This document shows, in pieces, positions 1,115 through 32,767 of a DNA stretch of 32,767 bases. A program made the position numbers and the translations under genes. The notes beneath the pieces were generated by a model, which saw nothing but the letters and a program-made list of their open reading frames with translations, was not told the DNA's origin and did not search any database. The stretch comes from Nitrospirota bacterium (lineage in GTDB: Bacteria > NPL-UPA2 > JAADIA01): the NCBI GenBank assembly GCA_013151555.1, contig JAADIA010000015.1, positions 1-32,767 on the forward strand, given 5' to 3'. How positions within the stretch are numbered: the first letter of the stretch is position 1; each line of letters opens with the position of its first letter.

Positions 1115-2380
1115 TTATAGGGCTTTGGCGCCGATGTCTTTTCGGTAGTACATATCCTGGAAGGATATTTTTTTTACTGCTTGGTAGGTTTTTTCAATGG
1201 CTTCTCTGATGTCGCTGCCCCGGCCTGTTACTCCCAGGACTCTTCCTCCGGCGGTAACTACCTTCCCGCCTTCAAGGGTAGTGCCGGCATGAAAGACGAT
1301 GACGTCTTCTTCCTCGGCTAATTCTTCTAATCCGTAAATCTCTTTACCGGTCTGGTATTTTCCCGGATAGCCTCCCGAGGTGATGACCACGCAGACGGCT
1401 GTTCCTGGGTTCCATTGTAGGGTGACCTGGCTCAGGTCTTCGGTGAGACAGGATTCCAGCAGTTCTATGAGGTCCGATTCCAGAAGCGGCAAAATGGCTT
1501 GGGTCTCGGGATCGCCTAAACGAACATTGAATTCCAGGACCTTCGGTCCGTCAGAGGTAAGCATCAGTCCGGCATATAAGATTCCCTGGAACTTTCTTCC
1601 TTCTTCCTTCATCCCTTTTACAGTGGGAACGAATATCTTCTCCATTACCTCAGCGGTCATCTCCGGGCTGACAAGGCGAGCGGGAGCATATGCTCCCATG
1701 CCGCCGGTGTTCGGTCCTTTATCGCCGTCGTAAATGGGCTTGTGGTCCTGGGAAGGAATTAAGGGAACGATGGTATCTCCGTTAGTGAGAGCGATGAAAG
1801 AAGCTTCTTCTCCCTGGAGGTACTCTTCTACAATAACCAGGTTACCGGCTTCCCCGAAAGCTTTTTTTACCATAATCAGGTTGACGGCTTCCTCGGCTTC
1901 TTCAACGGTCCGGCAGACGATAACCCCTTTTCCTGCCGCTAACCCGTCGGCTTTGACCACCAGGGGAGGGCCCTTTTCCCGGATATAAGCGATAGCTTCC
2001 TGCGGCCGGGCAAAGATTTCTCCTTCTCCTGTGGGGATACCGTATTTTCGCATCATTTTCTTGGCAAAGACTTTGCTGGTTTCAAGCTCGGCGGCAACTT
2101 TGGTGGGCCCGAAAATTTTTAAATTTTCTTTCCCGAACTCGTCCACGATTCCCGCTGCCAGGGGAGCTTCCGGTCCCACTACAGTGAAAGCAATTTTCTT
2201 CTCCCGGGCAAAGTTGATTAAGGCCGGGATGTCGGTGGCTTCGATAGGCACACATTGTGCTACCTGGGAAATCCCTCCGTTCCCCGGAGCACAATAAATC
2301 TTCTTCACCCGGGAACTCTGAGAGATCTTCCAGGCCAGGGTATGTTCTCGTCCGCCACTACCGATTATGAGAATATTCAT
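1115..2380 (-). CDS. purD: Phosphoribosylamine-glycine ligase
   Basis: Joins phosphoribosylamine and glycine with ATP (second step of IMP synthesis). The 421-aa length is normal. The N-terminal domain opens with 'MNILIIGSGGREHTLAWKIS'. The ATP-grasp region contains 'PLVVKADGLAAGKGV', the signature 'GPNTGGMGAYAP', and the metal-binding stretch 'LEFNVRLGDPETQ'. ATG 2380 is preferred over an in-frame ATG at 2398 because GAAGGTG lies just upstream and 'MNILIIGSGG' is the family N-terminus. It is the last gene of the purB-purM-phosphatase-small ORF-purH-purD series, all on the minus strand. No convincing terminator follows; REP-like repeats begin within about 20 bp of the stop. Confidence 0.95.
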   Translation of the reverse strand: MNILIIGSGGREHTLAWKISQSSRVKKIYCAPGNGGISQVAQCVPIEATDIPALINFAREKKIAFTVVGPEAPLAAGIVDEFGKENLKIFGPTKVAAELETSKVFAKKMMRKYGIPTGEGEIFARPQEAIAYIREKGPPLVVKADGLAAGKGVIVCRTVEEAEEAVNLIMVKKAFGEAGNLVIVEEYLQGEEASFIALTNGDTIVPLIPSQDHKPIYDGDKGPNTGGMGAYAPARLVSPEMTAEVMEKIFVPTVKGMKEEGRKFQGILYAGLMLTSDGPKVLEFNVRLGDPETQAILPLLESDLIELLESCLTEDLSQVTLQWNPGTAVCVVITSGGYPGKYQTGKEIYGLEELAEEEDVIVFHAGTTLEGGKVVTAGGRVLGVTGRGSDIREAIEKTYQAVKKISFQDMYYRKDIGAKAL

Positions 2381-16935: not shown

Positions 16936-17214
16936 AGGGGCAAGAGAAAGATAACCTTTCCTGCTCTTCAGAATCTCTTTCCGTCTGCAATTTACTTTCC
17001 CCATCCCTGTTTGCTTGATAAAGGGGTGAAACTCTTCGCCCCGGCAAATTCTTCCCCTAATGTCCCCTTGGAAGTAGCGCAACATAAATAGAAAAGACCT
17101 TTCTCCTTTATTCTGCTTGGACAAAATAAAAAAATGGTTTTTCACTCCGTAATAAAATACCCTCGGTAGGGGTTTAAAAGTAGAGGGATGTTGCCCTTAG
17201 GGCCTACTGGAATC
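16936..17214. other. Spacer between ComEA-like gene and the DUF4159 operon promoter
   Basis: No supported gene. Contains a weak stem AAGAGAAAG...CTTTCCTGCTCTT just after the comEA stop (possible terminator without a T-run) and a GGGG...CCCC pair near 17022-17042. Open frames on the minus strand here run into the ComEA coding region and lack family features. Confidence 0.5.
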
Positions 17215-17243
17215 TTGCTAAAGTTGAACAAAAAGGATATAAT
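17215..17243 (+). promoter_or_regulatory. Sigma-70 promoter of the DUF4159/MoxR gene block
   Basis: -35 TTGCTA (17215-17220), 17-nt spacer, consensus -10 TATAAT (17238-17243). The predicted start near 17250 leaves a 40-nt leader before ATG 17290 and rules out the upstream in-frame ATG at 17188. Confidence 0.75.
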
Positions 17244-17289
17244 TACTTCGGTGAGATGGGACCGGGAGAGAAAAAAGAGGAGGAAGAGA

Positions 17290-18807
17290 ATGGGGGGAAC
17301 TATTAACAAGCCTTGGAGTTCTTTCTTTCCCGGGCATACGTTCCCCTTTTTCATTATCGTCTTCCTCCTTTTGGTTAATGTCCCTGCTTTTGGAGAGGAA
17401 GAAGGCTGGTGCCCGGATTCCCTTCCTCCTCCTCCGAGACCTCAGCGTCGGGCTGGAGGAGAATCTCTCGCGCCGTTGCCTCTTCCGGTTACCCCCCAGC
17501 GTCGCACGGAGAAGAAACGTCCGCCGCGTCCGCCTGCCCTCATCGGTAAAATTGCTCAGGGAAAAGAAAGAGACTGGCTCATTAATAGGAATGATGCTCG
17601 TAACCTTCTCCGCTGGTTTGAAGCTAAGGCCGGATTTAAGTTCGGCGGACGGATGGTAAGGCTAAGAAAATTTTCTTTCGACCCTGCCGACATTCCCCTT
17701 CTTTATCTTAGCGGACGGCATTCCTTCCGGTGGACTGAATCCGAAAGGGCCAAGATTAGAGAATACCTTATCCGGGGCGGCTCGCTGATTATAACCAATT
17801 GCTGTGCCAGCAAGAAGTTCCGCCAGTCCGCTCGCCGGGAGATAGCAGCGCTCTTTCCGGAGAAAAAGCTTCATCCCGTAGGGATAGACAACCCCCTTTA
17901 CCGTTCCTTTTACGATATTACTGGAGATAAATATACCCGCAAAGCAGTTTCCAAACCAATGGTCGAAGGGATAGATATCGGCTGGCGGACCGTTTTAATC
18001 TATAGCGAATACGATCTGGGGTGCGGCTGGGATCCTCGCGAGCCTCTTGAGACTTGTCCTGCTTATCGGAAGGAGCACATAACCGATCTCTGGACCAGAG
18101 AACTGGGGACTAATCTGCTCGCTTATGTTTTAGCTAACAGAAAGACGGCTCAGGCTTCTTTTGAATTTCCGGTCTATGTTGATAAGGTTAAAACGGAAGG
18201 GAATGGTTTTACCATCGGTCAAGTAATCCATGCCGGCCAGTGGGATCCGGATCCGTCCGCTATCTCATCTCTTCTCAAAGCTGTCGGGGATGTGACAAAG
18301 GTCCCGGTCAGTCTTCGGAACAAGAATGTCGAGTTGACCGGGGCGGACTTATTCTCTTATCCTTTCCTTTATCTAACCGGTCACAATGATTTTAAACTCT
18401 CTAAAACCGAAGTTAAAAATCTCCGCTTCTACCTTCTTAACGGCGGCTTTCTCTTTGCGGATAGTGCCGACGGCCGGGAAGTTTTTGATGCTGCTTTCCG
18501 AAGAGAAATCAGGAGAGTCCTGCCGGAATTTTTCCTCTCTCCGCTGCCGGTAAACCATCCGATTTATTCCGCTTATTATAAAATTAAAAAGGTGGATTAT
18601 TCTTTAGCTGTTGAGACCAAAGATGGCAATTTAATCCGACCTCGCCTGGAAGGGATAACCGTGAATGGTAACTTGGCTGTGGTCTATAGTCCTTATGACC
18701 TCAGATACGGCTGGAATTTTAACGATCATCCTTACCGGAAGGGATACAGCCCTGAAGATAGCCTGCGCCTGGGAGTTAATGTTATCGTTTATGCTTTGAC
18801 ACATTAG
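17290..18807 (+). CDS. Secreted protein with two tandem DUF4159 domains
   Basis: 505 aa from ATG 17290 (ribosome site GAGGAGGAAGAG; promoter at 17215). Signal peptide with core 'FFIIVFLLLVNVPAFG'. A proline/arginine-rich linker (about 45-85) precedes two copies of a DUF4159 domain. Copy one has 'IPLLYLSGRHSFRW' and 'EYLIRGGSLIITNC'; copy two has 'YPFLYLTGHNDFKL' and 'FYLLNGGFLFADSADG'. Each ends in a 'YDL-x-x-GW' plus 'LGxNxxxYAL' block. DUF4159 has a class-I glutamine-amidotransferase-like fold and is usually found beside MoxR/VWA genes, as here. No catalytic Cys-His pair is evident. It lies about 1 kb upstream of moxR on the same strand. Function unknown. Confidence 0.8.
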   Translation: MGGTINKPWSSFFPGHTFPFFIIVFLLLVNVPAFGEEEGWCPDSLPPPPRPQRRAGGESLAPLPLPVTPQRRTEKKRPPRPPALIGKIAQGKERDWLINRNDARNLLRWFEAKAGFKFGGRMVRLRKFSFDPADIPLLYLSGRHSFRWTESERAKIREYLIRGGSLIITNCCASKKFRQSARREIAALFPEKKLHPVGIDNPLYRSFYDITGDKYTRKAVSKPMVEGIDIGWRTVLIYSEYDLGCGWDPREPLETCPAYRKEHITDLWTRELGTNLLAYVLANRKTAQASFEFPVYVDKVKTEGNGFTIGQVIHAGQWDPDPSAISSLLKAVGDVTKVPVSLRNKNVELTGADLFSYPFLYLTGHNDFKLSKTEVKNLRFYLLNGGFLFADSADGREVFDAAFRREIRRVLPEFFLSPLPVNHPIYSAYYKIKKVDYSLAVETKDGNLIRPRLEGITVNGNLAVVYSPYDLRYGWNFNDHPYRKGYSPEDSLRLGVNVIVYALTH

Positions 18808-18842
18808 CCCGCCAGCGGTGGGGGCAACAGCTACGGAGGCAT

Positions 18843-19790
18843 ATGAACAGGCACAGAGCGATTAAACGCACCCAGAGGCACGTTCAAACAGGCACAAAGG
18901 CACAGAGGCACAGAGGCACAAAGTTAAAGAACCTAAAAAAACTGCGCCTGTTAATCTTTGGTCTTATATCCTTTGTGCCTGTTATTTTTTCTGCTTTCAG
19001 CCAGGAAACGGGCGGAAGGGGAGAAACAGATGCTTTGGAGACAGAAGCTTTCTTCTCCCTGGCGGCTAAAGCGGACAACTATGTGAAGAAAGGGGATTAT
19101 AACCAAGCGGAAGTCTGCTCCCGGAAATTCCTGGAACAGTATCCGCAAAGCCGCTACTCGGCCTTTTCCTACCTCCGGATAGCAGGAATATACCAGGATT
19201 ACCTCCGGAACTATGGTCGGGCCAAGGAGCTATATGAGAAGGTATTAACCCTGCCAGGAGAAGATAAGCTGACTCGATTGTCCCGGAAGATAGCCGGGAT
19301 ATGGAGGGAAAGAATGGGATTGGCCCTCATTGAGCAGGCTCTTAACCGCTATTATGCCCGGGAGGTGGAATACCCGGCAAGTTTAAAAGTCCTCTTCCTT
19401 AAAGGCTATCTTAAGAAAGATTCCCTGAAGGATTCCCGGGGGAACGATTACTTCTACAGGTTAAAGGATTCCAGCCTTTTCTCTAAGCTTAGAGGGCAGG
19501 AGTATACTCTCTACTCTACCTCTGCCCCGGGGGAGAGGAAGCCTCTGTCTTTTCTCATCGAGAGAAGGAAAGCTTTTTCCCGTCAATTCTCCTTGCAGGG
19601 ATTGATCGGAGGTCCCGAGGGCAAAAAGGCAGTTATTAACTATAGCCCTGAATCTTCTGCTGCTGAACAAAGCCGGGAAATCCTCGCCGAAGGGGAGGAA
19701 ATAGGCGGAGCTCAGGTGGTGGAGATAACGAGTGCCGGAGTTATTCTTAAGGAGGGAGAGACCCTTTTGGTTTTAACTATGGGGAGATAA
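18843..19790 (+). CDS. Membrane-anchored TPR protein with GspC/PilP-like C-terminus
   Basis: 315 aa, not assigned to a named family. Very basic first 36 residues, then a hydrophobic segment ('LLIFGLISFVPVIFSAF', about 36-53) acting as signal or anchor. A TPR-like helical repeat region (about 68-130, 'DNYVKKGDYNQAEVCSRKFL', 'YGRAKELYEKVL') follows. The C-terminal about 50 residues end in 'GGAQVVEITSAGVILKEGET', resembling the beta-domain of GspC/PilP secretion proteins. GGAGG lies 3 nt before the ATG, which is tight. The first codons consist of the GGCACARAG repeat, so the N-terminus (...TGTKAQRHRGTK...) is repeat-derived. The next gene starts 2 nt after the stop, implying an operon with moxR. 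Confidence 0.65.
   Translation: MNRHRAIKRTQRHVQTGTKAQRHRGTKLKNLKKLRLLIFGLISFVPVIFSAFSQETGGRGETDALETEAFFSLAAKADNYVKKGDYNQAEVCSRKFLEQYPQSRYSAFSYLRIAGIYQDYLRNYGRAKELYEKVLTLPGEDKLTRLSRKIAGIWRERMGLALIEQALNRYYAREVEYPASLKVLFLKGYLKKDSLKDSRGNDYFYRLKDSSLFSKLRGQEYTLYSTSAPGERKPLSFLIERRKAFSRQFSLQGLIGGPEGKKAVINYSPESSAAEQSREILAEGEEIGGAQVVEITSAGVILKEGETLLVLTMGR
18887..18983. repeat. Inverted-arm GGCACAAAG element inside a coding region
   Basis: AACAGGCACAAAGG (18887-18900) is perfectly inverted at 18970-18983 (CCTTTGTGCCTGTT). The left arm continues as tandem GGCACAGA/GGCACAAAG words to about 18921. The element overlaps the signal-anchor region of the TPR gene and would form a strong hairpin in its mRNA. 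Confidence 0.75.
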
Positions 19791-19792
19791 AC

Positions 19793-21043
19793 ATGGCGAA
19801 GAAAGAAGCTGTAGATAGTGAGGGAACGCTGATTGTCCCGGAAGGCAAGGTCATTACCTGTCCGGGATGTGGAGTTAAATTGGACGTTACCAAGGTGGAG
19901 GAAGGAACTACTATCCAATGTCCTAAGTGCGACGTTTCCTTCCCTATCTCTTTTGAAGAGGGGAAAGCAGTGGAGGTAAACCCGGTTAAAAGAGAGATAA
20001 CTGCGGCCCCTTTGACACAGGCTTCTACCGGGGTAAAGGAGACGGATATTGAGGCAATCCGGGATTTAGCCGGGAAGAGGGATATCCTTTTGGAGGCTAT
20101 CGGGAAAGTAATCGTTGGACAGCATCAGGTAATAGATGAGATGTTAATTTCTGTCTTCTCCCGGGGTCACTGCTTGGTAGTTGGGGTTCCCGGCTTAGCC
20201 AAGACGCTCCTGGTAAAGACTATTGCCAAGCTCCTCGCTCTCAATTTCAAACGTATCCAGTTTACCCCCGATATGATGCCCTCGGATATTACCGGGACGG
20301 ATATCATCGAGGAAGATAGCTCCACGGGGAAGAGAGCATTCAAATTTATCAGAGGTCCTATTTTTGCTAACATCATCCTGGCTGATGAAATAAACAGGAC
20401 TCCTCCCAAGACTCAGGCTGCTCTTCTGGAGGCTATGCAGGAGAGTCGGGTAACCGCTCGGGGAATAACTTATCTGCTGGAGCCTCCTTTCTTTGTCCTG
20501 GCTACTCAGAATCCCATTGAGCAAGAAGGAACTTATCCTCTTCCGGAGGCTCAGCTTGACCGTTTTATGTTCAACATCTACATCGATTATCCGGATAAAG
20601 ATGAGGAATGTGCAATTGTCAAGAGGACGACCACCGAGGAAGAAAAAGAGTTCTCCAGTGTCCTTTCCCGGGAAGATATCCTTACCATCCAGAGGGTTGT
20701 GAGAAAGATTCCGGTATCGGACCATCTGATTAACTATGCGGTGAATTTAACCAGAAGTACCCGGCCTCATAACGCTGACTGTCCCGATTTTGTGAAGAAA
20801 TGGGTCAGCTGGGGAGCCGGCCCTCGTGCTGCCCAGTATCTGGTTCTCGGCAGCAAGGCCCGGGCGGTAACCCAGGGAAGGTACAATGTCTCCTGCGACG
20901 ATATCCGGGCAATTGCCAAACCTGTCCTCCGGCACCGGTTGGTAACTAATTTCAATGCCGAAGCAGAAGGGATAAGCACCGATGAGATAATTGATAAACT
21001 CCTTGAACTTATCCCGGAGCCGGGGGAAAAAGATTATAAATGA
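19793..21043 (+). CDS. MoxR-family AAA+ ATPase with N-terminal zinc ribbon
   Basis: 416 aa. An unusual N-terminal zinc-ribbon motif ('CPGCGVKL', C23/C26 and 'CPKCDVSF', C43/C46) is joined by a linker to a full MoxR module. Walker A 'GVPGLAKTLL' (131-140), Walker B 'IILADEINRTPPKTQAALLE' (194-213), sensor-1 'ATQNPIEQEGTYPLPEAQLD' (237-256), and the C-terminal lid. MoxR ATPases act as chaperones with VWA-domain partners; partners are encoded next door (DUF58 and two VWA genes). Starts 2 nt after the TPR gene. The zinc ribbon resembles the MJ0042/thioredoxin-type cysteine pairs and may mediate protein contacts (inference). Confidence 0.92.
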   Translation: MAKKEAVDSEGTLIVPEGKVITCPGCGVKLDVTKVEEGTTIQCPKCDVSFPISFEEGKAVEVNPVKREITAAPLTQASTGVKETDIEAIRDLAGKRDILLEAIGKVIVGQHQVIDEMLISVFSRGHCLVVGVPGLAKTLLVKTIAKLLALNFKRIQFTPDMMPSDITGTDIIEEDSSTGKRAFKFIRGPIFANIILADEINRTPPKTQAALLEAMQESRVTARGITYLLEPPFFVLATQNPIEQEGTYPLPEAQLDRFMFNIYIDYPDKDEECAIVKRTTTEEEKEFSSVLSREDILTIQRVVRKIPVSDHLINYAVNLTRSTRPHNADCPDFVKKWVSWGAGPRAAQYLVLGSKARAVTQGRYNVSCDDIRAIAKPVLRHRLVTNFNAEAEGISTDEIIDKLLELIPEPGEKDYK

Positions 21044-21054
21044 AGGTGCGAGAG

Positions 21055-21127
21055 ATAGGATTAAGGATTAAGACACTTACTTCGTTTGCTTTAAGAATTA
21101 AGTTTTTTACTTAATACTTAATCCTAT
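21055..21127. repeat. Inverted-arm intergenic element (GGATTAAG words)
   Basis: ATAGGATTAAG (21055-21065) is perfectly inverted at 21117-21127; a tandem GGATTAAG (21065-21072) extends the left arm. Just downstream are the words CTGTGCCTGAG and TCCGTGCATTCCGTGGC (21168-21184), the latter an internal repeat of TCCGTG. The element separates moxR from the DUF58 gene. Confidence 0.65.
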
Positions 21128-21220
21128 TTTCTGTGCCTGAGGGCAGCTGGTTAATTTCTCAACGGGTTCCGTGCATTCCGTGGCAAAATTAATAGTATAG
21201 ATTAGGGAGAGGGAGAAAAA

Positions 21221-22115
21221 ATGCCTAACAGTCAGCGGTTCCTGAAGCCGGAAGCATTGAGGAAGTTGGCTAACATGAACTTGGTGGCCCGGCTGGTAGT
21301 GGAGGGATTTATTTCCGGATTGCATCGCAGCCCTTACAAAGGTTTCAGCGTGGAATTCTCCCCAGCATCGGGAATATTCCCCCGGTGATGACCTGAAACA
21401 TCTGGATTGGAAGGTATATGCCCGGTCTGATAAATACTATGTGAAACAGTATGAGGAAGAGACTAACCTGAAAGCCTACATTCTTCTCGACTCCAGCAAC
21501 TCAATGAATTACAAGTCTAAGGGGCTGAGCAAGTTCGAGTATGGCTGCTACTTAGCTGCTTCTTTAGCTTATCTGATGATCAGACAGCAGGATTCGGTAG
21601 GATTGGTAGTCTTCGATGAGGTCATCAGAGAACTTGTCCCGCCCAAATCGACGGCCACGCACCTGAAAGTGATCTTAGAACATCTGGAAGGCGCCAAGGT
21701 AGGGAGGCAAACTAATCTCAGCCAGACCTTTCATGATTTAGCCGAGAGGGTCAGGCGCAGGGGGTTGATTATCGTTATCTCCGACCTCTTAGCTGACCCG
21801 CCGGAAGTTTTAAGAGGACTGAAACATTTTCGCCACCGTAAACATGAAGTCATCGTCTTCCATCTTTTAGATCATGAGGAGTTGACCTTTCCTTTTACCA
21901 GGATGACCGTCTTCCGTGACCTGGAGACCAACGAAAAGATGCCGGTCGACCCTAACAGCATCAGGCAGGAGTATCTTCAGTCTATCCGGGAATTCCTGAA
22001 AGAGTATAAACAAGGATGTTATGAAAGCAAGATAGATTACCTCAACGTGGATACATCCGTCCCCTTTGACCTTTGCCTGACTTCCTATCTGGCTAAGAGA
22101 CAGAAGGTGAGATAA
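21221..22115 (+). CDS. DUF58 protein (VWA-like MoxR partner), frame broken by one extra base
   Basis: The gene starts at ATG 21221 (ribosome site AGAGGGAGA) and reads '[20 protein letters not shown]' ... 'YKGFSVEFS'. It then runs into a CCCC run at 21360-21363 and would stop at about 21386. Removing one C restores the DUF58 signature: '[20 protein letters not shown]' continuing into '[20 protein letters not shown]'. The repaired protein is 297 aa, the usual DUF58 length. The VWA-like core has 'LLDSSNSMN' and '[13 protein letters not shown]'. Without repair only a fragment from ATG 21441 (224 aa) is available. It may be a sequencing/assembly error, a true mutation, or a slippery site. Its stop overlaps the next start as TAATG. 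Confidence 0.8.
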
Positions 22116-24274
22116 TGGCAGGACTCTTCTTCCTCAGTCCGATGTTCCTCTGGGGCTTGGCAGCCATCTCCATCCCGGTTATTATCCACTTAATCCATAC
22201 CCGGAAAGCTCAGGTCAAATCTTTTACCACTCTCCGCTTCCTCAAGCTTTCCTACCGGAGGACAGCCCGGAAATCGAAACTGACAAACCTCCTTTTACTC
22301 CTTTTGAGGATAGGGATCATCGTCCTCCTGGCCTTAGCCTTAGCCAGACCCATCCTGAAGGTCTCCCCTTCCGCAATAATCGGAGCTAATGCCCGCTCCA
22401 GTGTAGTTCTTATTCTTGATAATTCCTATAGCATGGGTTATCGGGAGGAAGGACTATCCCGTTTTCAACGAGCTCAAAAAGCGGGAATCGCTATCCTGGA
22501 TACCCTGAAAGAAGGCGATGAGGTAGCCATTATCTTCATGAACGAGAACGCCGATTCCTTTTTCAAAGAATTCACCTACGATATCCCCGCGGCCAAGGAA
22601 GCTCTCCGCCAGGTGAAGTTATCTTCCCGGGGAACGGAGGTGAAAAAGTCTCTGGAGAAGGCCTATGAACTTCTGCGGAACTCGGATAAGGTAAACCGGG
22701 AGATTTATCTCCTCACTGACCTTCAGAAAAATAGCTGGCAGTCGATGTTCGAGAACAATTTTCTTGCCAAAGAGGAAAAGGCCGGAGAGAAAACATCCGT
22801 CTATATTACCTCTTTTGACCAAGCGGAGGCCGACAATGTTTTTATAGAAAAGATCGAACTTCCTCCTCAAGGCCGGGCCGTTGGCCTGCCCGTAGAACTT
22901 TCCGTTAAGGTAGTCAATCTTGGCCCGAAGCCAGTGAACGAAATCTTAACTCTAACTGTGGATGGGGTGAAAAAGCTCCAGCAGCCGGTTCTTCTTCCTT
23001 CCGGCTCTCCCCGGACCGTCAAGATGAGTTATACCTTCTCTACTCCGGGGACACATACCGGTAAAGTTACCATAAAAGGGGACCAACTGAGCCAGGATGA
23101 CAGCCGCTATTTCCAGACTCGGCTGGAAGATAAGCTTCCGATCCTTTGTGTTGATGGTGACCCTTCGGAAGTTCCCGCCTTATCGGAGAGCTTTTATCTC
23201 TTAGCGGCCCTCAATCCCGCTGCTTTCCCGGGGGCTGAAAGAGAATCAGCCTTTCTTCCCCGCCGCATTGAACTCCCGGAGTTGGGAGATCAAAACCTGC
23301 TTCAGTACCGAATCGTTATCTTTGCCAATGTTCCCTATCTAAAAGAGACGAAGGTAATGAAGGTTGAAGAGTATCTGAAGGCGGGCGGTAACCTGATCAT
23401 TTTCCTGGGCGGGAAAGTGCAGCCGAAAGAATATAACCGGTGGGAGTTTCTCCCCGCTCTCCTGGTTAGCCCTCAGGGCTCTCCGGATAAGAAAAATCCC
23501 TTCTATCTAAGCGATATAGACTATAGCAATCTTCTTTTCCGTCCCTTTAGCCTCCCGGGAAACGGAGACCTGACCATCCCCAAATTTTATCAATGTTATT
23601 CTCTTAAGGAGACCGGGAAGAATCCCCCGGCTCAGGTGCTGGCCCGGTTCACTAATGGCTATCCCGCCATTATCGAACGTAGTTACGGGGCGGGAAAAGT
23701 CCTTATGGTAAACACTACTGCCGATGAAGATTGGACCAATCTTCCCCTGCGGGCGGTGTTCCTTCCCCTGGTTCATCAGATGGTCTATTACCTATCGGGC
23801 CGGAAAGAGGTAAGCGAAAGATATTATGTGGGAGATTCCGTGCCGTTCACATCTACCCTGAGTGGGTACAAAGGGAAGCTCACAATAACCAACCCCCGGG
23901 GGAGGAAATTTGTCTTAACTCCTTCGCCCCGGGAAGGCTACAGCGTCGCCACCTTCAAGGAAACAAAGCTGCCGGGGATATATACCGTTTCCTGGGAAGG
24001 AGGTTACTTCGGCCCCGATACGGCCTTTGCCGTTAACCTGAATACCCGGGAATCTCTTCTGTCCCCAGCTTCCCCTGACAAGATCAGGAAATTATTCGGC
24101 AAGATTCCTTTAACCTTGGTTAGCAATCCTGAGAAGTTGTCCACTGTTATAAAAAGATCCCGGCAGGGAGTTCAACTCTGGCCGAGACTTCTTTCGTTAG
24201 CTCTAATATTTTTTATCGCCGAGCTTCTCTTGTCAAACAGGTTCAGTCATCCTGGAGGGAGGGAGAAAGAATAA
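22115..24274 (+). CDS. BatA-like VWA membrane protein
   Basis: 719 aa. The N-terminal double-transmembrane BatA domain ('LSPMFLWGLAAISIPVIIHL', then 'TLRFL', second membrane segment about 58-80) precedes a VWA domain with MIDAS-like 'LILDNSYSMG' (D102) and 'IYLLTDLQKNSWQ'. A beta-rich domain (about 235-340) and an amidotransferase-like region ('ILCVDGDPSEVPALSES', 'YLKAGGNLIIFLGG') follow. A final membrane segment ('LLSLALIFFIAELLL') lies near residue 700. Translation is coupled to DUF58 (TAATG). In the MoxR/Bat systems such proteins display a VWA domain in the periplasm. Substrate unknown. Confidence 0.85.
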   Translation: MAGLFFLSPMFLWGLAAISIPVIIHLIHTRKAQVKSFTTLRFLKLSYRRTARKSKLTNLLLLLLRIGIIVLLALALARPILKVSPSAIIGANARSSVVLILDNSYSMGYREEGLSRFQRAQKAGIAILDTLKEGDEVAIIFMNENADSFFKEFTYDIPAAKEALRQVKLSSRGTEVKKSLEKAYELLRNSDKVNREIYLLTDLQKNSWQSMFENNFLAKEEKAGEKTSVYITSFDQAEADNVFIEKIELPPQGRAVGLPVELSVKVVNLGPKPVNEILTLTVDGVKKLQQPVLLPSGSPRTVKMSYTFSTPGTHTGKVTIKGDQLSQDDSRYFQTRLEDKLPILCVDGDPSEVPALSESFYLLAALNPAAFPGAERESAFLPRRIELPELGDQNLLQYRIVIFANVPYLKETKVMKVEEYLKAGGNLIIFLGGKVQPKEYNRWEFLPALLVSPQGSPDKKNPFYLSDIDYSNLLFRPFSLPGNGDLTIPKFYQCYSLKETGKNPPAQVLARFTNGYPAIIERSYGAGKVLMVNTTADEDWTNLPLRAVFLPLVHQMVYYLSGRKEVSERYYVGDSVPFTSTLSGYKGKLTITNPRGRKFVLTPSPREGYSVATFKETKLPGIYTVSWEGGYFGPDTAFAVNLNTRESLLSPASPDKIRKLFGKIPLTLVSNPEKLSTVIKRSRQGVQLWPRLLSLALIFFIAELLLSNRFSHPGGREKE

Positions 24275-24325
24275 GTTAACAAGTGTTCCAGTGCTTGAGT
24301 GCTCCAGGGGAGGAGAGGAATCAAG

Positions 24326-24898
24326 ATGTTAAAATATATTTTATCTTTACTGATGCTTTTGATAAGCACGCCTGCCTTTGCCGGGTCAAACCTGATCAAG
24401 AATCCCGGTTTTGAGGAGGGCCGGCAGGACAACCGGAACCTGCCCCGCTATTGGGAAGCTACCGAGGAGAAACATGTTTCTCCGGAATATGTTGCTGAGA
24501 ATGTCTCTCTGGTACCTGCCGGCAGGAAAGGTAAGTCCTTAAAAATTAACCTGACCAAAAGGGTGGCCAACGGACCGGGGCTCGGTTTCCTCAGCGACTG
24601 GATAGAGATAACGCCGGGGAAGGAGTACGAACTCAAAGTAGATGTTAAAAGCCGGGGGCCGAAACCCATCATCTTCGCCATAGGATACGGTCTGGAGAAA
24701 GAAGAAAGAAAAATCATCTATAGAGCCCAGAAACAACTCCGGCCGCAATCGAACGATTGGGAAACTTTCTCCAGAAGTTTTCCTTCTCAGTCCGGGAGCA
24801 AGAGATTCCAGAAAGTAAAATGGCTCCGCATTAAACTGTATGCTTATCATCCTCAAGGAGATGTTTATTTTGATAATGTGAGTTTGAAAGCTAAATAA
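24326..24898 (+). CDS. Secreted carbohydrate-binding-module-like protein
   Basis: 190 aa from ATG 24326 (ribosome site GGGAGGAGAGG; an earlier in-frame start at 24299 lacks one). Signal peptide 'LSLLMLLISTPAFAG', then 'NLIKNPGFEEG', the hallmark opening of CBM4/9-type beta-sandwiches, and a closing strand 'GDVYFDNVSLKAK' typical of the same fold. No catalytic domain, so it is a stand-alone binding module. Placed between the two VWA membrane-protein genes, it may be a periplasmic accessory recognising glycan or polymer (inference). Confidence 0.72.
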   Translation: MLKYILSLLMLLISTPAFAGSNLIKNPGFEEGRQDNRNLPRYWEATEEKHVSPEYVAENVSLVPAGRKGKSLKINLTKRVANGPGLGFLSDWIEITPGKEYELKVDVKSRGPKPIIFAIGYGLEKEERKIIYRAQKQLRPQSNDWETFSRSFPSQSGSKRFQKVKWLRIKLYAYHPQGDVYFDNVSLKAK

Positions 24899-24902
24899 GA
24901 AG

Positions 24903-25013
24903 TTTTGACAGGATGAATACGATGAACCGGATTAAATTTATTGAGAACCAAAAAACCTATTAAGCGCTTACCATTGAAGAATAAAAATCTTGTTAATCCA
25001 GTTAATCCTGTCA
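24903..25013. repeat. Inverted-arm intergenic element (TTAATCC words)
   Basis: Left arm GACAGGATGAA (24907-24917) and GGATTAA (24929-24935). Right arm TTAATCC (24993-24999) and TTAATCCTGTC (25002-25012). The outer pair matches 10 of 11 bases inverted. The words TTAATCC-n-TTAATCCTGTC look like a repeat I recall from intergenic DNA of diverse bacteria. Confidence 0.65.
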
Positions 25014-25074
25014 GAGGAAAAATTTTAAATCTTTTATCTTTGTATTAAATCAGAGTTTTTTTAGGAGCTGAACG

Positions 25075-27303
25075 ATGCAGTTGTTTTTTGAAAGAGCAGG
25101 GAATCCTTTTCTGATTTTCTTCCTCATCGTGGGCTTTATCGTCCTGGCCTATCTGTCTTATCGAGGGGTTTATCAAACGGTTTCCCGGAAGGTCGGCCTG
25201 ATGCTTCTCACCTTCCGGATTTTAGCTTTCCTGCTTCTCTTCTTCGCCCTCTTCCAGCCGGTGGTGAAGTTCACGGAGACGAAGAATCTGAAACCTTACC
25301 TTGTCTTGCTCCTGGATAGCTCGAAGAGCATGGGGATTAAAGAGGGGAAAGATTCCCCGTCGAGGCTCGTAAAAGCCGAGGAGGCTTTAAGGAAAGGAGC
25401 CATTATAAAAAAATTACAGGCAAAAGGCATAGTCAAACTCTTTGAATTTTCTTCCGGGATAACCGCGCGCAACCTTCAGGATATTGATAACCTCAAAGAG
25501 GCTCAGGGAAATCATACGGATATTGCCAAATCCCTGAAGGCAGCCGTAAACGAACTCCGGGGACAACCCCTTTCCGCCCTGATTCTCCTCTCCGACGGTC
25601 AGAATAACGGCGGCGAGGACCCGGTAAAGACGGCCGGGAATCTCCAGGTTCCCATTTATACCGTGGGTGTGGGAGAGAAGAAAGGAGAAGGGGGAAAGGA
25701 TATAGAAGTCTCTCACATATCATTTAGCAAAAGGGTCATGGTCAATAATCTTACCGAAATCGAAGCTACCATAAAAAGCAGAAACTACGAAAATAAACTT
25801 CTCCCCGTGGACCTTACCCTGGGAGAGCAAATTTTGGCCAGCTCGGTTATCACTCTGAGCGAGGCTCAACCAACTCAGAAGGTAAAACTCTCCTTCGTTC
25901 CCCGGAAAGTGGGTCGGTTTGTCTATACGGTGACAGTTCCTCTGGACCGGGAGGAAGTCATTGCCGAGAATAACCGGAAATCCTTCTCCCTGCGCGTTAC
26001 CAATCCCCGCATTAAAGTCCTCTACTTCGAAGGGGCTCCCCGCTGGGAATATAAGTTCCTGAAGAGAAAATTGGAAAGCGATCCCAATATTGAACTGGTC
26101 TCCTTCCTGCGCACCGGCCGGGAAAGAATCCTCCGTCAGGGGACTACCTTAGAGACTGCCTCTCTAAAGATTCCCCAAAGTCCGGAAGAATTCTCTGAAT
26201 ATGATGTCATCATCTTTGGCAATATTAAACGGGATTTCTTTACCTCCGCCCAGTTGGCAGCCATAAAGACCATGGTGGAGGAAGGGGGAGCCTTTATCAT
26301 GCTGGGAGGAAAGAACTCCTTCGGAGCGGGCAATTATAGAGGCACTCCCATAGAAGAGATTCTCCCCGTCTCCCTCGGAGCCGGCGGATGGATATCCTCT
26401 AAGTTCAAGATGGAGTTAACCGCCGAGGGCCGGGCGTACCCAATCTTCCGTTCTTCCTCAAAGGGATGGGAAAACCTTCCCGCTCTCTCCGGAGGCAATA
26501 TCGTTGACTCAGCCAAGCCGGGAGCGACTGTTTTGGCTACCTATCCTTATCGAAAGAACAGGAACGGGAAACTCATCGTCATGGCCGTTCAGAATTACGG
26601 CCAGGGGAAGACCGTGGCCATCACTACCGATTCCACCTGGCGATGGACATTTTCCGGCCGGGGCGGCGACGAATACTCCCGGTTCTGGAGTCAACTCTTC
26701 CGCTGGCTTTATCCCGAGAAAAAGGAGAAAGAAAAAGAAGGAAAACTGGTTCAGGTAATTACTGACAGAGATAACTATTTTTCCGAGGATACCATCTATA
26801 TCACCGCCCGGGTCCGGGATGAGGATGGAAGGTTGATTCCCGACGTTCAGGTGAGTTGTCTAATTGATACCCCGGATGGCAAAGAGGTCCAGTTGAAGAT
26901 GAATCCCAATTCTTCCTCAGCTACCGATTCTCTCTTGGGGGAAGATTACTCCTTAACTTTTGTTCCCAAGAAAAGGGGAACTTATAAGATCACTGTTAAA
27001 GCCTCCCGCAAGGAGCAGCTCCTGGGTGAGGATACCCTGTCTCTTCTGGTGGGAGACCCCTCCCTGGAGTTTCGAAATACCTGGTTGAACGAACGCCTCT
27101 TGCGCCGGTTAGCCACGGAGAGCCGCGGTCGATACTATGATCTGGAGACCGTGGATAAACTCCCCGATGATATCGTCGTTCAGGGAAAAGTTGTTACCCA
27201 GGTTCGGGAAAAGAAGCTCTGGGATAGCCCCTGGTTATTTATAAGTTTCTTAGTTCTGCTTACCCTGGAATGGTCGATTAGAAAGACCCAGCAACTCATT
27301 TAA
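25075..27303 (+). CDS. VWA-domain membrane protein with glutamine-amidotransferase-like domain
   Basis: 742 aa. Two N-terminal membrane segments (about 11-29 and 41-62) precede a VWA domain with MIDAS motif 'LLLDSSKSMG' (D81) and 'LILLSDGQNNGG'. A beta-sandwich region (about 205-315) and a GATase1-like domain ('VLYFEGAPRWEYKFLKRKL', 'EEGGAFIMLGGKNSFGAG', 'NYGQGKTVAITTDSTWRW') follow, then an Ig-like beta domain (about 565-665) and a C-terminal membrane helix (about 722-738). It is a partner of the BatA-like protein encoded upstream. The 'PRWEYKFL' block is typical of this family of large Bat-associated proteins. ATG follows AGGAGCTG. Confidence 0.83.
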   Translation: MQLFFERAGNPFLIFFLIVGFIVLAYLSYRGVYQTVSRKVGLMLLTFRILAFLLLFFALFQPVVKFTETKNLKPYLVLLLDSSKSMGIKEGKDSPSRLVKAEEALRKGAIIKKLQAKGIVKLFEFSSGITARNLQDIDNLKEAQGNHTDIAKSLKAAVNELRGQPLSALILLSDGQNNGGEDPVKTAGNLQVPIYTVGVGEKKGEGGKDIEVSHISFSKRVMVNNLTEIEATIKSRNYENKLLPVDLTLGEQILASSVITLSEAQPTQKVKLSFVPRKVGRFVYTVTVPLDREEVIAENNRKSFSLRVTNPRIKVLYFEGAPRWEYKFLKRKLESDPNIELVSFLRTGRERILRQGTTLETASLKIPQSPEEFSEYDVIIFGNIKRDFFTSAQLAAIKTMVEEGGAFIMLGGKNSFGAGNYRGTPIEEILPVSLGAGGWISSKFKMELTAEGRAYPIFRSSSKGWENLPALSGGNIVDSAKPGATVLATYPYRKNRNGKLIVMAVQNYGQGKTVAITTDSTWRWTFSGRGGDEYSRFWSQLFRWLYPEKKEKEKEGKLVQVITDRDNYFSEDTIYITARVRDEDGRLIPDVQVSCLIDTPDGKEVQLKMNPNSSSATDSLLGEDYSLTFVPKKRGTYKITVKASRKEQLLGEDTLSLLVGDPSLEFRNTWLNERLLRRLATESRGRYYDLETVDKLPDDIVVQGKVVTQVREKKLWDSPWLFISFLVLLTLEWSIRKTQQLI

Positions 27304-31209: not shown

Positions 31210-31488
31210 ATCTTTTACCATCGCTTCTTCCCCTTGATGTCTACCTATATATAGAAAGAGGCGGACATTTGTTGAAAATCTTAAACATCTTGATACGACA
31301 GGCTAATAGTCTGCCTGATATAGAGTTGCCCTGGGATTTCTTTTCCTTACGTTTAAATAATTCAACATTTAAGGTTTGCCGGGAAAGTTAAGGGGGAGTG
31401 AGGCGGGAATAAAAAGTTCTTCTCTATAATATTGTATAGCAATAAGTTGCAATTGGAAAGAAAGAAAGAATGTTGATTTTGAAGAGGC
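31210..31488. other. Regulatory spacer upstream of the sigma-54 promoter
   Basis: No coding frame supported. Holds CTATATATAG (31241-31250) and small inverted pairs such as TTG-TATAG-CAA near 31433-31443. Enhancer sites for a sigma-54 activator would be expected in this interval, but I cannot identify a motif with confidence. No clear terminator follows the 1209-aa gene. Confidence 0.4.
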
Positions 31489-31504
31489 TGGCATGAAACT
31501 TGCA
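31489..31504 (+). promoter_or_regulatory. Sigma-54 (-24/-12) promoter of the PEP-CTERM gene
   Basis: TGGCATG-AAAC-TTGCA, matching the sigma-54 consensus TGGCACG-N4-TTGCW at all but one position, with exact -24/-12 spacing. The start would fall about 12 nt downstream, giving a leader of roughly 80 nt before ATG 31596. PEP-CTERM genes in other bacteria are often placed under sigma-54 control with PrsK/PrsR-type regulators. Confidence 0.82.
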
Positions 31505-31547
31505 AGAGTAAGGCCTTAGGTACAGGAAAAAACTGTTCACAAACTAG

Positions 31548-31586
31548 TCCTGGCGGACACGATGATATTTCCGCTTCGGGACAGGA
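31548..31586 (+). promoter_or_regulatory. Leader hairpin overlapping the PEP-CTERM ribosome site
   Basis: TCCTG (31548-31552) pairs with CAGGA (31582-31586) and GCGGA (31553-31557) with TCCGC (31570-31574). The 3' strand CAGGA overlaps the ribosome site AGGAAAGGG, so the fold could modulate translation. The pairing is seen; regulation is inference. Confidence 0.4.
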
Positions 31587-31595
31587 AAGGGAATA

Positions 31596-32378
31596 ATGAA
31601 AAAAACAATGGTAGTGTTTACGGCCTTTTTTTTGACTGCTCTGACGTTGACTTTTAGCGGGGGGAACGCCCAGGCTGCAGCGTTCTCAGGGGGCGAGGCA
31701 TGGATTGATTGGACGACCTTCACTATAGATGGGAATATTTCCTTGACGGAGGGGGTCAGTCAGTCTTCGGTCCATGTGGAAAGTGATATAGGCGGAGATG
31801 AAGATGGAGATGTTACCCTTGGGTTCTCTCCGTGGGGAAATACTTATGCTTTCGCCTCGATTCCACCTAATATGGAAGGAACCGCCTGGACTGATGAGAG
31901 CGATCTATACGCAACGGCGAATGTAGATGTATATGGAATTGACAGTACATCGGCGTCCTCCAAGGCAGATGCGTACCGCCGAGGGGACTTTGTAGCAAAC
32001 TCGGATACCTTGGTAACAATCTCAGCAGAACACTTTCTTTCGCAGTCTTTGAGTTCTGACGATATGGGGGAGTGGGCATGGAATCTTGCCGAAGCAGGGC
32101 TGCGGTTAAAGAATGGGAACACGCTTGAGTCGGGTGAAGACATTGGGCAACTTGCCAACTATGCTCCGGATGGTGATTATATATACGATACATACCATGA
32201 TTCCCTGTTGTTGGAAGTGTCAGTACCCTTTAGTGCCGGGGAGATGGGTTTTTTTGAGGCCTGGGCACATAATGGGGCGCAAGCAGAAGCGAATGTTATC
32301 CCTGAACCGACAACGCTCCTCCTTCTCGGCTCCGGCTTAGCGGGGATATTCGGGCTGAGGAGAAAAACAACTATTTAG
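31596..32378 (+). CDS. PEP-CTERM exosortase-sorted secreted protein
   Basis: 260 aa. N-terminal signal peptide ('MKKTMVVFTAFFLTALTLTF' ... 'AQAAA'). The acidic, Ser/Thr/Gly-rich middle lacks recognisable domains. The C-terminal sorting signal is 'VIPEPTTLLLLGSGLAG' (PEP motif plus membrane helix), closed by 'LRRKTTI'. Such proteins are cut by exosortase and usually go to extracellular matrix or biofilm. Directly downstream of a sigma-54 promoter. Ribosome site GGAAAGGG. No exosortase gene is in the window. Confidence 0.87.
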   Translation: MKKTMVVFTAFFLTALTLTFSGGNAQAAAFSGGEAWIDWTTFTIDGNISLTEGVSQSSVHVESDIGGDEDGDVTLGFSPWGNTYAFASIPPNMEGTAWTDESDLYATANVDVYGIDSTSASSKADAYRRGDFVANSDTLVTISAEHFLSQSLSSDDMGEWAWNLAEAGLRLKNGNTLESGEDIGQLANYAPDGDYIYDTYHDSLLLEVSVPFSAGEMGFFEAWAHNGAQAEANVIPEPTTLLLLGSGLAGIFGLRRKTTI

Positions 32379-32469: not shown

Positions 32470-32767
32470 ATGGAAAGAACGACGAAAAAGATGGGTGTGT
32501 TACTTGCGATACTGGTAATGATCTTTGGATTAACGGGCTATGCACATGCGACATCTTTTGCTGCTGCTGTAATTTCTTATACTATAGGTTCTCCGAATGA
32601 TGCCCCTCTTGCCACTGATGCATCGGTACCTCAGGGTGTTACCGGAGCCCCGGATTGGAATATTTCTCTTCCTTTCTCCTCTCCACCCAGCCCGTTGGAC
32701 CCATACTACCAGTCTTATGTTAATCTTGGCATAAGTGGTGAGATGGTGTTAAAGATGGACAGTTGGA
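32470..32767 (+). CDS. Exported protein, cut by the window end (possible second PEP-CTERM protein)
   Basis: Open from ATG 32470 (AAAGGAGAG upstream) to the window edge, 99 codons visible. Signal peptide 'MGVLLAILVMIFGLTGYAHA' from residue 8, then a Ser/Pro/Asp-rich mature part. Start 91 nt after the PEP-CTERM gene with no clear terminator between, so probably the same sigma-54 transcript. The C-terminus is off-window, so the sorting signal cannot be checked. Confidence 0.68.
   Translation, partial: MERTTKKMGVLLAILVMIFGLTGYAHATSFAAAVISYTIGSPNDAPLATDASVPQGVTGAPDWNISLPFSSPPSPLDPYYQSYVNLGISGEMVLKMDSW

Follow-up and report, generated by a model that had tools for sequence, protein, structure and literature searches.

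A sigma-54 regulon of PEP-CTERM genes, apparently outside the Proteobacteria, with a paired palindrome as its putative enhancer

The sequence TGGCATGAAACTTGCA, which precedes a PEP-CTERM gene near the end of contig C49 of a 1.81-Mb genome (94% complete, 99 contigs), raises the questions of whether it is a sigma-54 promoter, whether it belongs to a wider regulon, and which enhancer-binding protein might act on it. The analysed stretch of this contig, 32,767 nucleotides in length, is called the window here. Sigma-54 control of PEP-CTERM genes is already known in Proteobacteria since 2006, when Haft et al. reported a sigma-54 motif, accompanied by an activator motif, upstream of 99 out of 167 PEP-CTERM genes of Proteobacteria, the regulatory motif being stated for Proteobacteria only (PMC1569441). 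PrsK-PrsR control in Zoogloea has been summarised (PMC9012009), and sigma-54 has been argued to control the bacterial exterior generally (PMC3162934). The host of the window apparently belongs to a candidate phylum outside the Proteobacteria, likely NPL-UPA2, as judged from one gene: its LeuC has 78% identity to a metagenome-assembled genome of candidate division NPL-UPA2 and at most 69% to others.

In sigma-54 promoters, the GG of the -24 element and the GC of the -12 element are canonically separated by ten nucleotides. The same geometry is found at the end of the window, where GG (31490-91) and GC (31502-03) are 10 nt apart within an exact match to TGGCAYR-N4-TTGCW, and the ATG at 31596 lies 91 nt past the element. 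An earlier note on this DNA, which had proposed TGGCATG-N4-TTGCA with exact spacing about 90 nt before a PEP-CTERM gene, thus described the site correctly. It is the single exact match in the window; when two mismatches were allowed, 5 matches were found there versus 3.96 expected, no excess over chance. The genome-wide scan proposed in that note gave 24 exact matches to TGGCAYG-N4-TTGCW and 1 to the reversed pattern, so that the promoter pattern occurs far above chance. The genome also has rpoN, whose absence would have spoken against the reading, in one copy (444 bits; cut-off 277), as well as ten sigma-54 AAA+ activators, and the known sigma-54 targets nifH and the ammonium transporter gene amt, which served as internal positive controls, carry sites. 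The sequence comparisons strongly support a real sigma-54 promoter before the PEP-CTERM gene. We also noticed that the nifH and amt promoters (L216 1353 and 10515, L003; contigs C76 and C28) have an identical CTAT spacer, unlike the AAAA often present in this place upstream of PEP-CTERM genes, and that groES-groEL lies behind an exact sigma-54 site (L012 ~1501-1516, reverse strand, contig C68), which is unusual for a chaperonin operon.

The protein encoded behind the promoter ends in VIPEPTTLLLLGSGLAGIFGLRRKTTI and exceeds the cut-offs of PF07589 (31.3 bits, cut-off 20.7) and TIGR02595 (25.7 bits, cut-off 16). The second exported protein that had been noticed behind it was found as well, as an open reading frame with a signal-peptide-like start. 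It has no Pfam match, and a terminator-like site, looked for in the gap between the two genes, was not found; the second gene may possibly be an operon partner of the first. Elsewhere in the window (17188-27303), there is a cluster of genes for DUF4159, MoxR-type ATPase, and VWA-domain proteins in a BatA-like arrangement. The features of the locus and of the candidate activator operon are collected in Table 1.

Table 1. Features of the promoter region in the window and the operon of the candidate activator.
Feature	Position	Strand	Basis or remark
Distal activator-site-like palindrome, GTTGAAAATCTTAAAC(A)	31271..31286	+	-218 from the -24 element; dyad enumeration versus shuffles, position table
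Proximal activator-site-like palindrome, GTTTAAATAATTCAAC(A)	31351..31366	+	-138 from the -24 element; dyad enumeration, position table
Sigma-54 -24/-12 core promoter, TGGCATG-AAAC-TTGCA	31489..31504	+	Pattern match; 24 exact versus 1 reversed genome-wide
Predicted transcription start	31514..31516	+	~12 nt past the GC of -12; from canonical sigma-54 geometry
PEP-CTERM gene, 260 aa, with signal peptide	31596..32378	+	PF07589, TIGR02595; PEP-CTERM tail coded by 32298-32366
Second exported-protein open reading frame	32470..32767	+	Signal-peptide-like start; cut by contig end; possible operon partner
Kinase/activator operon, contig C16 of the same genome (G000)	L337 1567-4930		Own sigma-54 site and paired GTT-N10-AAC

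The genome encodes an exosortase/PEP-CTERM sorting system with two exosortases and 17 matches to PF07589 over the cut-off. One exosortase adjoins EpsB_2, the XrtA/PEP-CTERM glycosyltransferase (TIGR03013, 455.6 bits, cut-off 393). A sigma-54 site lies upstream of 13 of the 16 PEP-CTERM genes with enough readable upstream DNA; these include weaker members found by sequence, and the remaining genes are cut by contig ends. The count is slightly inflated because it was the sigma-54 site of the C90 gene that drew attention to this gene; when C90 is left out, the count is 12/15. Eleven of the 13 sites are exact, those on C33 and C22 differ at one or two positions, and two of the 13 genes (C32 and C59) are not the first in their sigma-54 operons. 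At two PEP-CTERM loci (C21:28443 and the pair on C75), both a sigma-54 site and the palindrome described below are absent. On contig C97 (L047 813-2400), a frameshift or an assembly error apparently separates the signal-peptide part of another PEP-CTERM gene from its PEP-CTERM part. Together with rpoN, these counts bear out the proposed tie between sorting-signal proteins and enhancer-dependent transcription, and extend it to the regulon. In a second genome of the same phylum (G008), ten PEP-CTERM genes were found with neither of the two elements, and the wiring is therefore lineage-specific rather than phylum-wide.

We enumerated all palindromic dyads with half-sites of 3-4 nt and gaps of 2-17 in the 250 nt upstream of the 13 PEP-CTERM promoters, using 200 dinucleotide-preserving shuffles. 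TGTT-N10-AACA was the top-ranked dyad, found in 10 of the 13 promoters versus 0.095 expected, and GTT-N10-AAC occurs within 250 nt upstream in 13/13 (1.06 expected). There are mostly two copies, at about -136 and -218 from the TGG of the -24 element, with the proximal copy at -134 to -138 in most sister promoters; on C64 and C50 the copies are instead about 31 bp apart, and some promoters have a mismatch to GTT or AAC in one of the two arms. All 25 copies have A directly after AAC, though this base was not selected for. As spacing controls, N9 was found in 1/13 and N11 in 0/13 promoters, and reversed dyads were rare. GTT-N10-AACA was absent from all 12 other sigma-54 promoters (nifH, amt, groES, cytochromes, a DOMON protein, lpxD-like and others; Fisher p = 1.9e-7, with nine of the palindrome-bearing promoters being kin). 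The longer TGTT-N10-AACATT has 12 matches genome-wide versus 1 for the control, 9 of them at known palindrome promoters, and the palindrome also stands before truncated exported-protein genes (C85, C81), at a contig-edge site (C80), and before operons on C50 and C16. Nine palindrome-bearing promoters are homologous over a longer stretch; since they are kin by descent, the counts are only partly independent. By sequence, the upstream regions form about seven groups, each with the palindrome, and shared descent therefore does not account for the spacing. We rejected a GTT-N10-AAC at -32 of the sigma-54 site on C91 as an activator site, as it resembles a terminator hairpin followed by T. Two sigma-54 promoters of cytochrome clusters (L211 ~640 and L099 ~2410; contigs C20 and C84) share another palindrome-like element, TGTGnTAAAACACGCAG, which suggests a second activator-specific sub-regulon.

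The genes behind these promoters look like a programme for matrix polysaccharide and sorted surface proteins, because of the contents of two operons and the exosortases with TIGR03013. The C50 operon, which has the same promoter and palindromes, contains genes for an HddA-like heptose kinase, for a GmhA-like/nucleotidyltransferase fusion protein, and for an export protein similar to TIGR03027 (XrtA/PEP-CTERM exopolysaccharide export; 116 bits, below the cut-off of 180). In the C59 operon, a gene for a TPR protein with weak similarity to PrsT is joined by one for a FecR-domain protein and one for a subtilase that carries a PEP-CTERM tail. A matrix role has been proposed for PEP-CTERM systems (PMC1569441), and a role in flocs has been shown (PMC9850573).

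Among the activator operons whose upstream regions were examined, only that on C16 has the palindrome pair at a sigma-54 site: the site is TGGCACGAAAAATGCA, with GTT-N10-AAC at -214 and -125. This operon encodes a GAF-PAS histidine kinase and a regulator that belongs to the NtrC family by its domains, with an intact receiver, a sigma-54 AAA+ domain with the GAFTGA loop, and HTH_8. The palindrome pair before its own operon suggests autoregulation, and because of this shared enhancer the C16 regulator is, we infer, the best candidate for the PEP-CTERM activator, an assignment resting on one promoter in which the proximal site is at -125 and not at -136.

We consider it quite probable that the locus belongs to an enhancer-dependent sigma-54 regulon for a cell-surface and matrix programme, activated via the paired GTT-N10-AAC and likely by the C16 circuit. 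The C16 circuit appears the most likely one because the same pair of sites precedes almost all of the PEP-CTERM genes with enough upstream DNA, the C50 operon, and the C16 operon. RNA polymerase with sigma-54 would sit at TGGCATG-N4-TTGCA as a closed complex, and a dimeric Fis-type (HTH_8) enhancer-binding protein would bind the paired 16-bp palindromes near -136 and -218, about eight helical turns apart. The bound activator would loop to the polymerase, and ATP hydrolysis would open the promoter. The C16 histidine kinase might phosphorylate the C16 response regulator, which would jointly activate its own operon, the PEP-CTERM genes, and the matrix-polysaccharide genes. That the palindrome binds an activator, that this activator is the C16 protein, and that the promoters are transcribed in this manner are what the sequence patterns point to. 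The fuller proposition that a self-amplifying kinase/activator pair other than PrsK/PrsR runs the whole PEP-CTERM and matrix-polysaccharide programme through this new paired element seems to us evenly balanced.

It is rather unlikely that the palindrome binds a repressor or an architectural protein and that the sigma-54 activator is another enhancer-binding protein. The activators on C57, C55, and C82 also have no close orthologues in relatives, which would be compatible with such an arrangement; however, the position, the near-helical-repeat pairing, and the 16-bp dyad symmetry are typical of activator sites, the palindrome is confined to one sigma-54 subset, and the C16 operon is the only activator operon examined to carry the pair.

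The earlier note had placed the promoter in line with PrsK/PrsR control, and this part of its reading was not supported, whereas the sigma-54 promoter of PEP-CTERM genes was, regulon-wide. We used the profiles TIGR02915 for PrsR (cut-off 502.6 bits) and TIGR02916 for PrsK (cut-off 300). None of the ten activators was over the PrsR cut-off, the best scoring 440.9 bits. In trees built from nine PrsR sequences over the cut-off from other genomes and the activators of the present genome, eight of the nine formed a clade with a support of 1.0 that excluded every tested activator of this genome, including the best-scoring one; the ninth, from a genome without PEP-CTERM matches (G035), fell outside the clade. 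In genomes with PrsR (mostly G050 and G195), the top dyad at PEP-CTERM promoters was TGTC-N9-GACA, in 8 regions versus 0.06 expected, and the PrsR-type GTC-N9-RAC was found in 0/13 promoters here, versus 13/13 for GTT-N10-AAC, the element that also precedes the operon of the non-PrsR pair on C16. PrsK/PrsR might still run the regulon as in Proteobacteria if PrsR were encoded in the 6% of the genome that is missing or had diverged below the cut-off, and the PrsR palindromes are likewise paired and similar in their half-site end (GACA versus AACA). Moreover, the best match to the PrsK profile (160 bits, positions 227-679) is a PrsK-like kinase that has a GAF domain and is incomplete, being cut at the start of contig C52. 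But the receiver proteins that follow this kinase have no AAA+ domain, and with half-sites and spacing that differ and activators that all fall outside the PrsR clade, we regard such control as distinctly improbable. Two of the receiver proteins without AAA+ are alike in another respect: that on C91 (L098 2561-3154), whose gene follows a sigma-54 site, has a Fis-type helix-turn-helix at its end, and that beside the PrsK-like kinase on C52 (L093 1607-2254) ends in a similar-looking tail.

We discarded the activator with the highest PrsR-like score, on C92, as a candidate for the PEP-CTERM genes. Its neighbour is an lpxD-like gene that has a sigma-54 site of its own, and orthologues of this activator occur throughout the phylum, also in G008, where the motif is missing before the PEP-CTERM genes. 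Three genomes of the phylum have the lpxD-like gene preceded by a sigma-54 site (C92 L097 2327-5119; L239 in G008; L198 in G003), with an adjoining activator gene in at least two cases. Finally, we give almost no credence to the promoter being a chance match or to the shared upstream sequence reflecting recent PEP-CTERM gene duplication. Nine upstream regions are detectably homologous, and in the window relaxed matches do not exceed chance expectation; even so, the genome-wide excess is 24 to 1, and the spacing of both elements is conserved in about seven upstream groups that are unrelated to one another and stand before unrelated genes.

The wiring resembles the PrsK/PrsR/PrsT system of Haft et al. 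in having a -24/-12 motif, there on average 71 nt before genes, and an upstream activator motif, at 13/16 genes here versus the 99/167 there; it differs in that the proteobacterial motif 1 is 17 nt long, ends in TTTACA, and lies about 63 nt upstream of motif 2 (PMC1569441), whereas the present genome has the paired GTT-N10-AAC and no PrsR over the cut-off. The RpoN1-dependent pepA of Aquincola tertiaricarbonis likewise has its mapped start behind a GG/GC -24/-12 element (TGGCAC...CTGCTT), but Aquincola is a proteobacterium, and the motif and control were discussed as PrsK-PrsR type (PMC9850573). In Desulfovibrio vulgaris, the sigma-54-type response regulator DVUA0057 binds upstream of five PEP-CTERM genes by DAP-chip; its gene is plasmid-borne, within an exopolysaccharide operon, and it has no validated motif (PMC3333781). 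The C16 regulator is encoded elsewhere. With its adjacent kinase gene and its domains, the C16 regulator is like NtrC-family enhancer-binding proteins with a cognate kinase; its target palindrome and GAF-PAS kinase do not match those of PrsK/PrsR.

In the open-access literature searched, we did not find a prior description of a GTT-N10-AAC enhancer or of PEP-CTERM regulation in this phylum. What is new is the sigma-54/PEP-CTERM wiring apparently outside the Proteobacteria, with another enhancer and probably another two-component system. The analysis provides a well-defined enhancer that can be searched for, along with a single named candidate for its activator, and indicates that a sigma-54 regulon is divisible into sub-regulons by sequence alone, even in an uncultured organism. 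Because phylum, enhancer, and probably the two-component system are different, the same sigma-54 logic suggests repeated recruitment for surface and matrix proteins. If a C16-type circuit is true, evolution would have brought exosortase substrates under sigma-54 control on more than one occasion.
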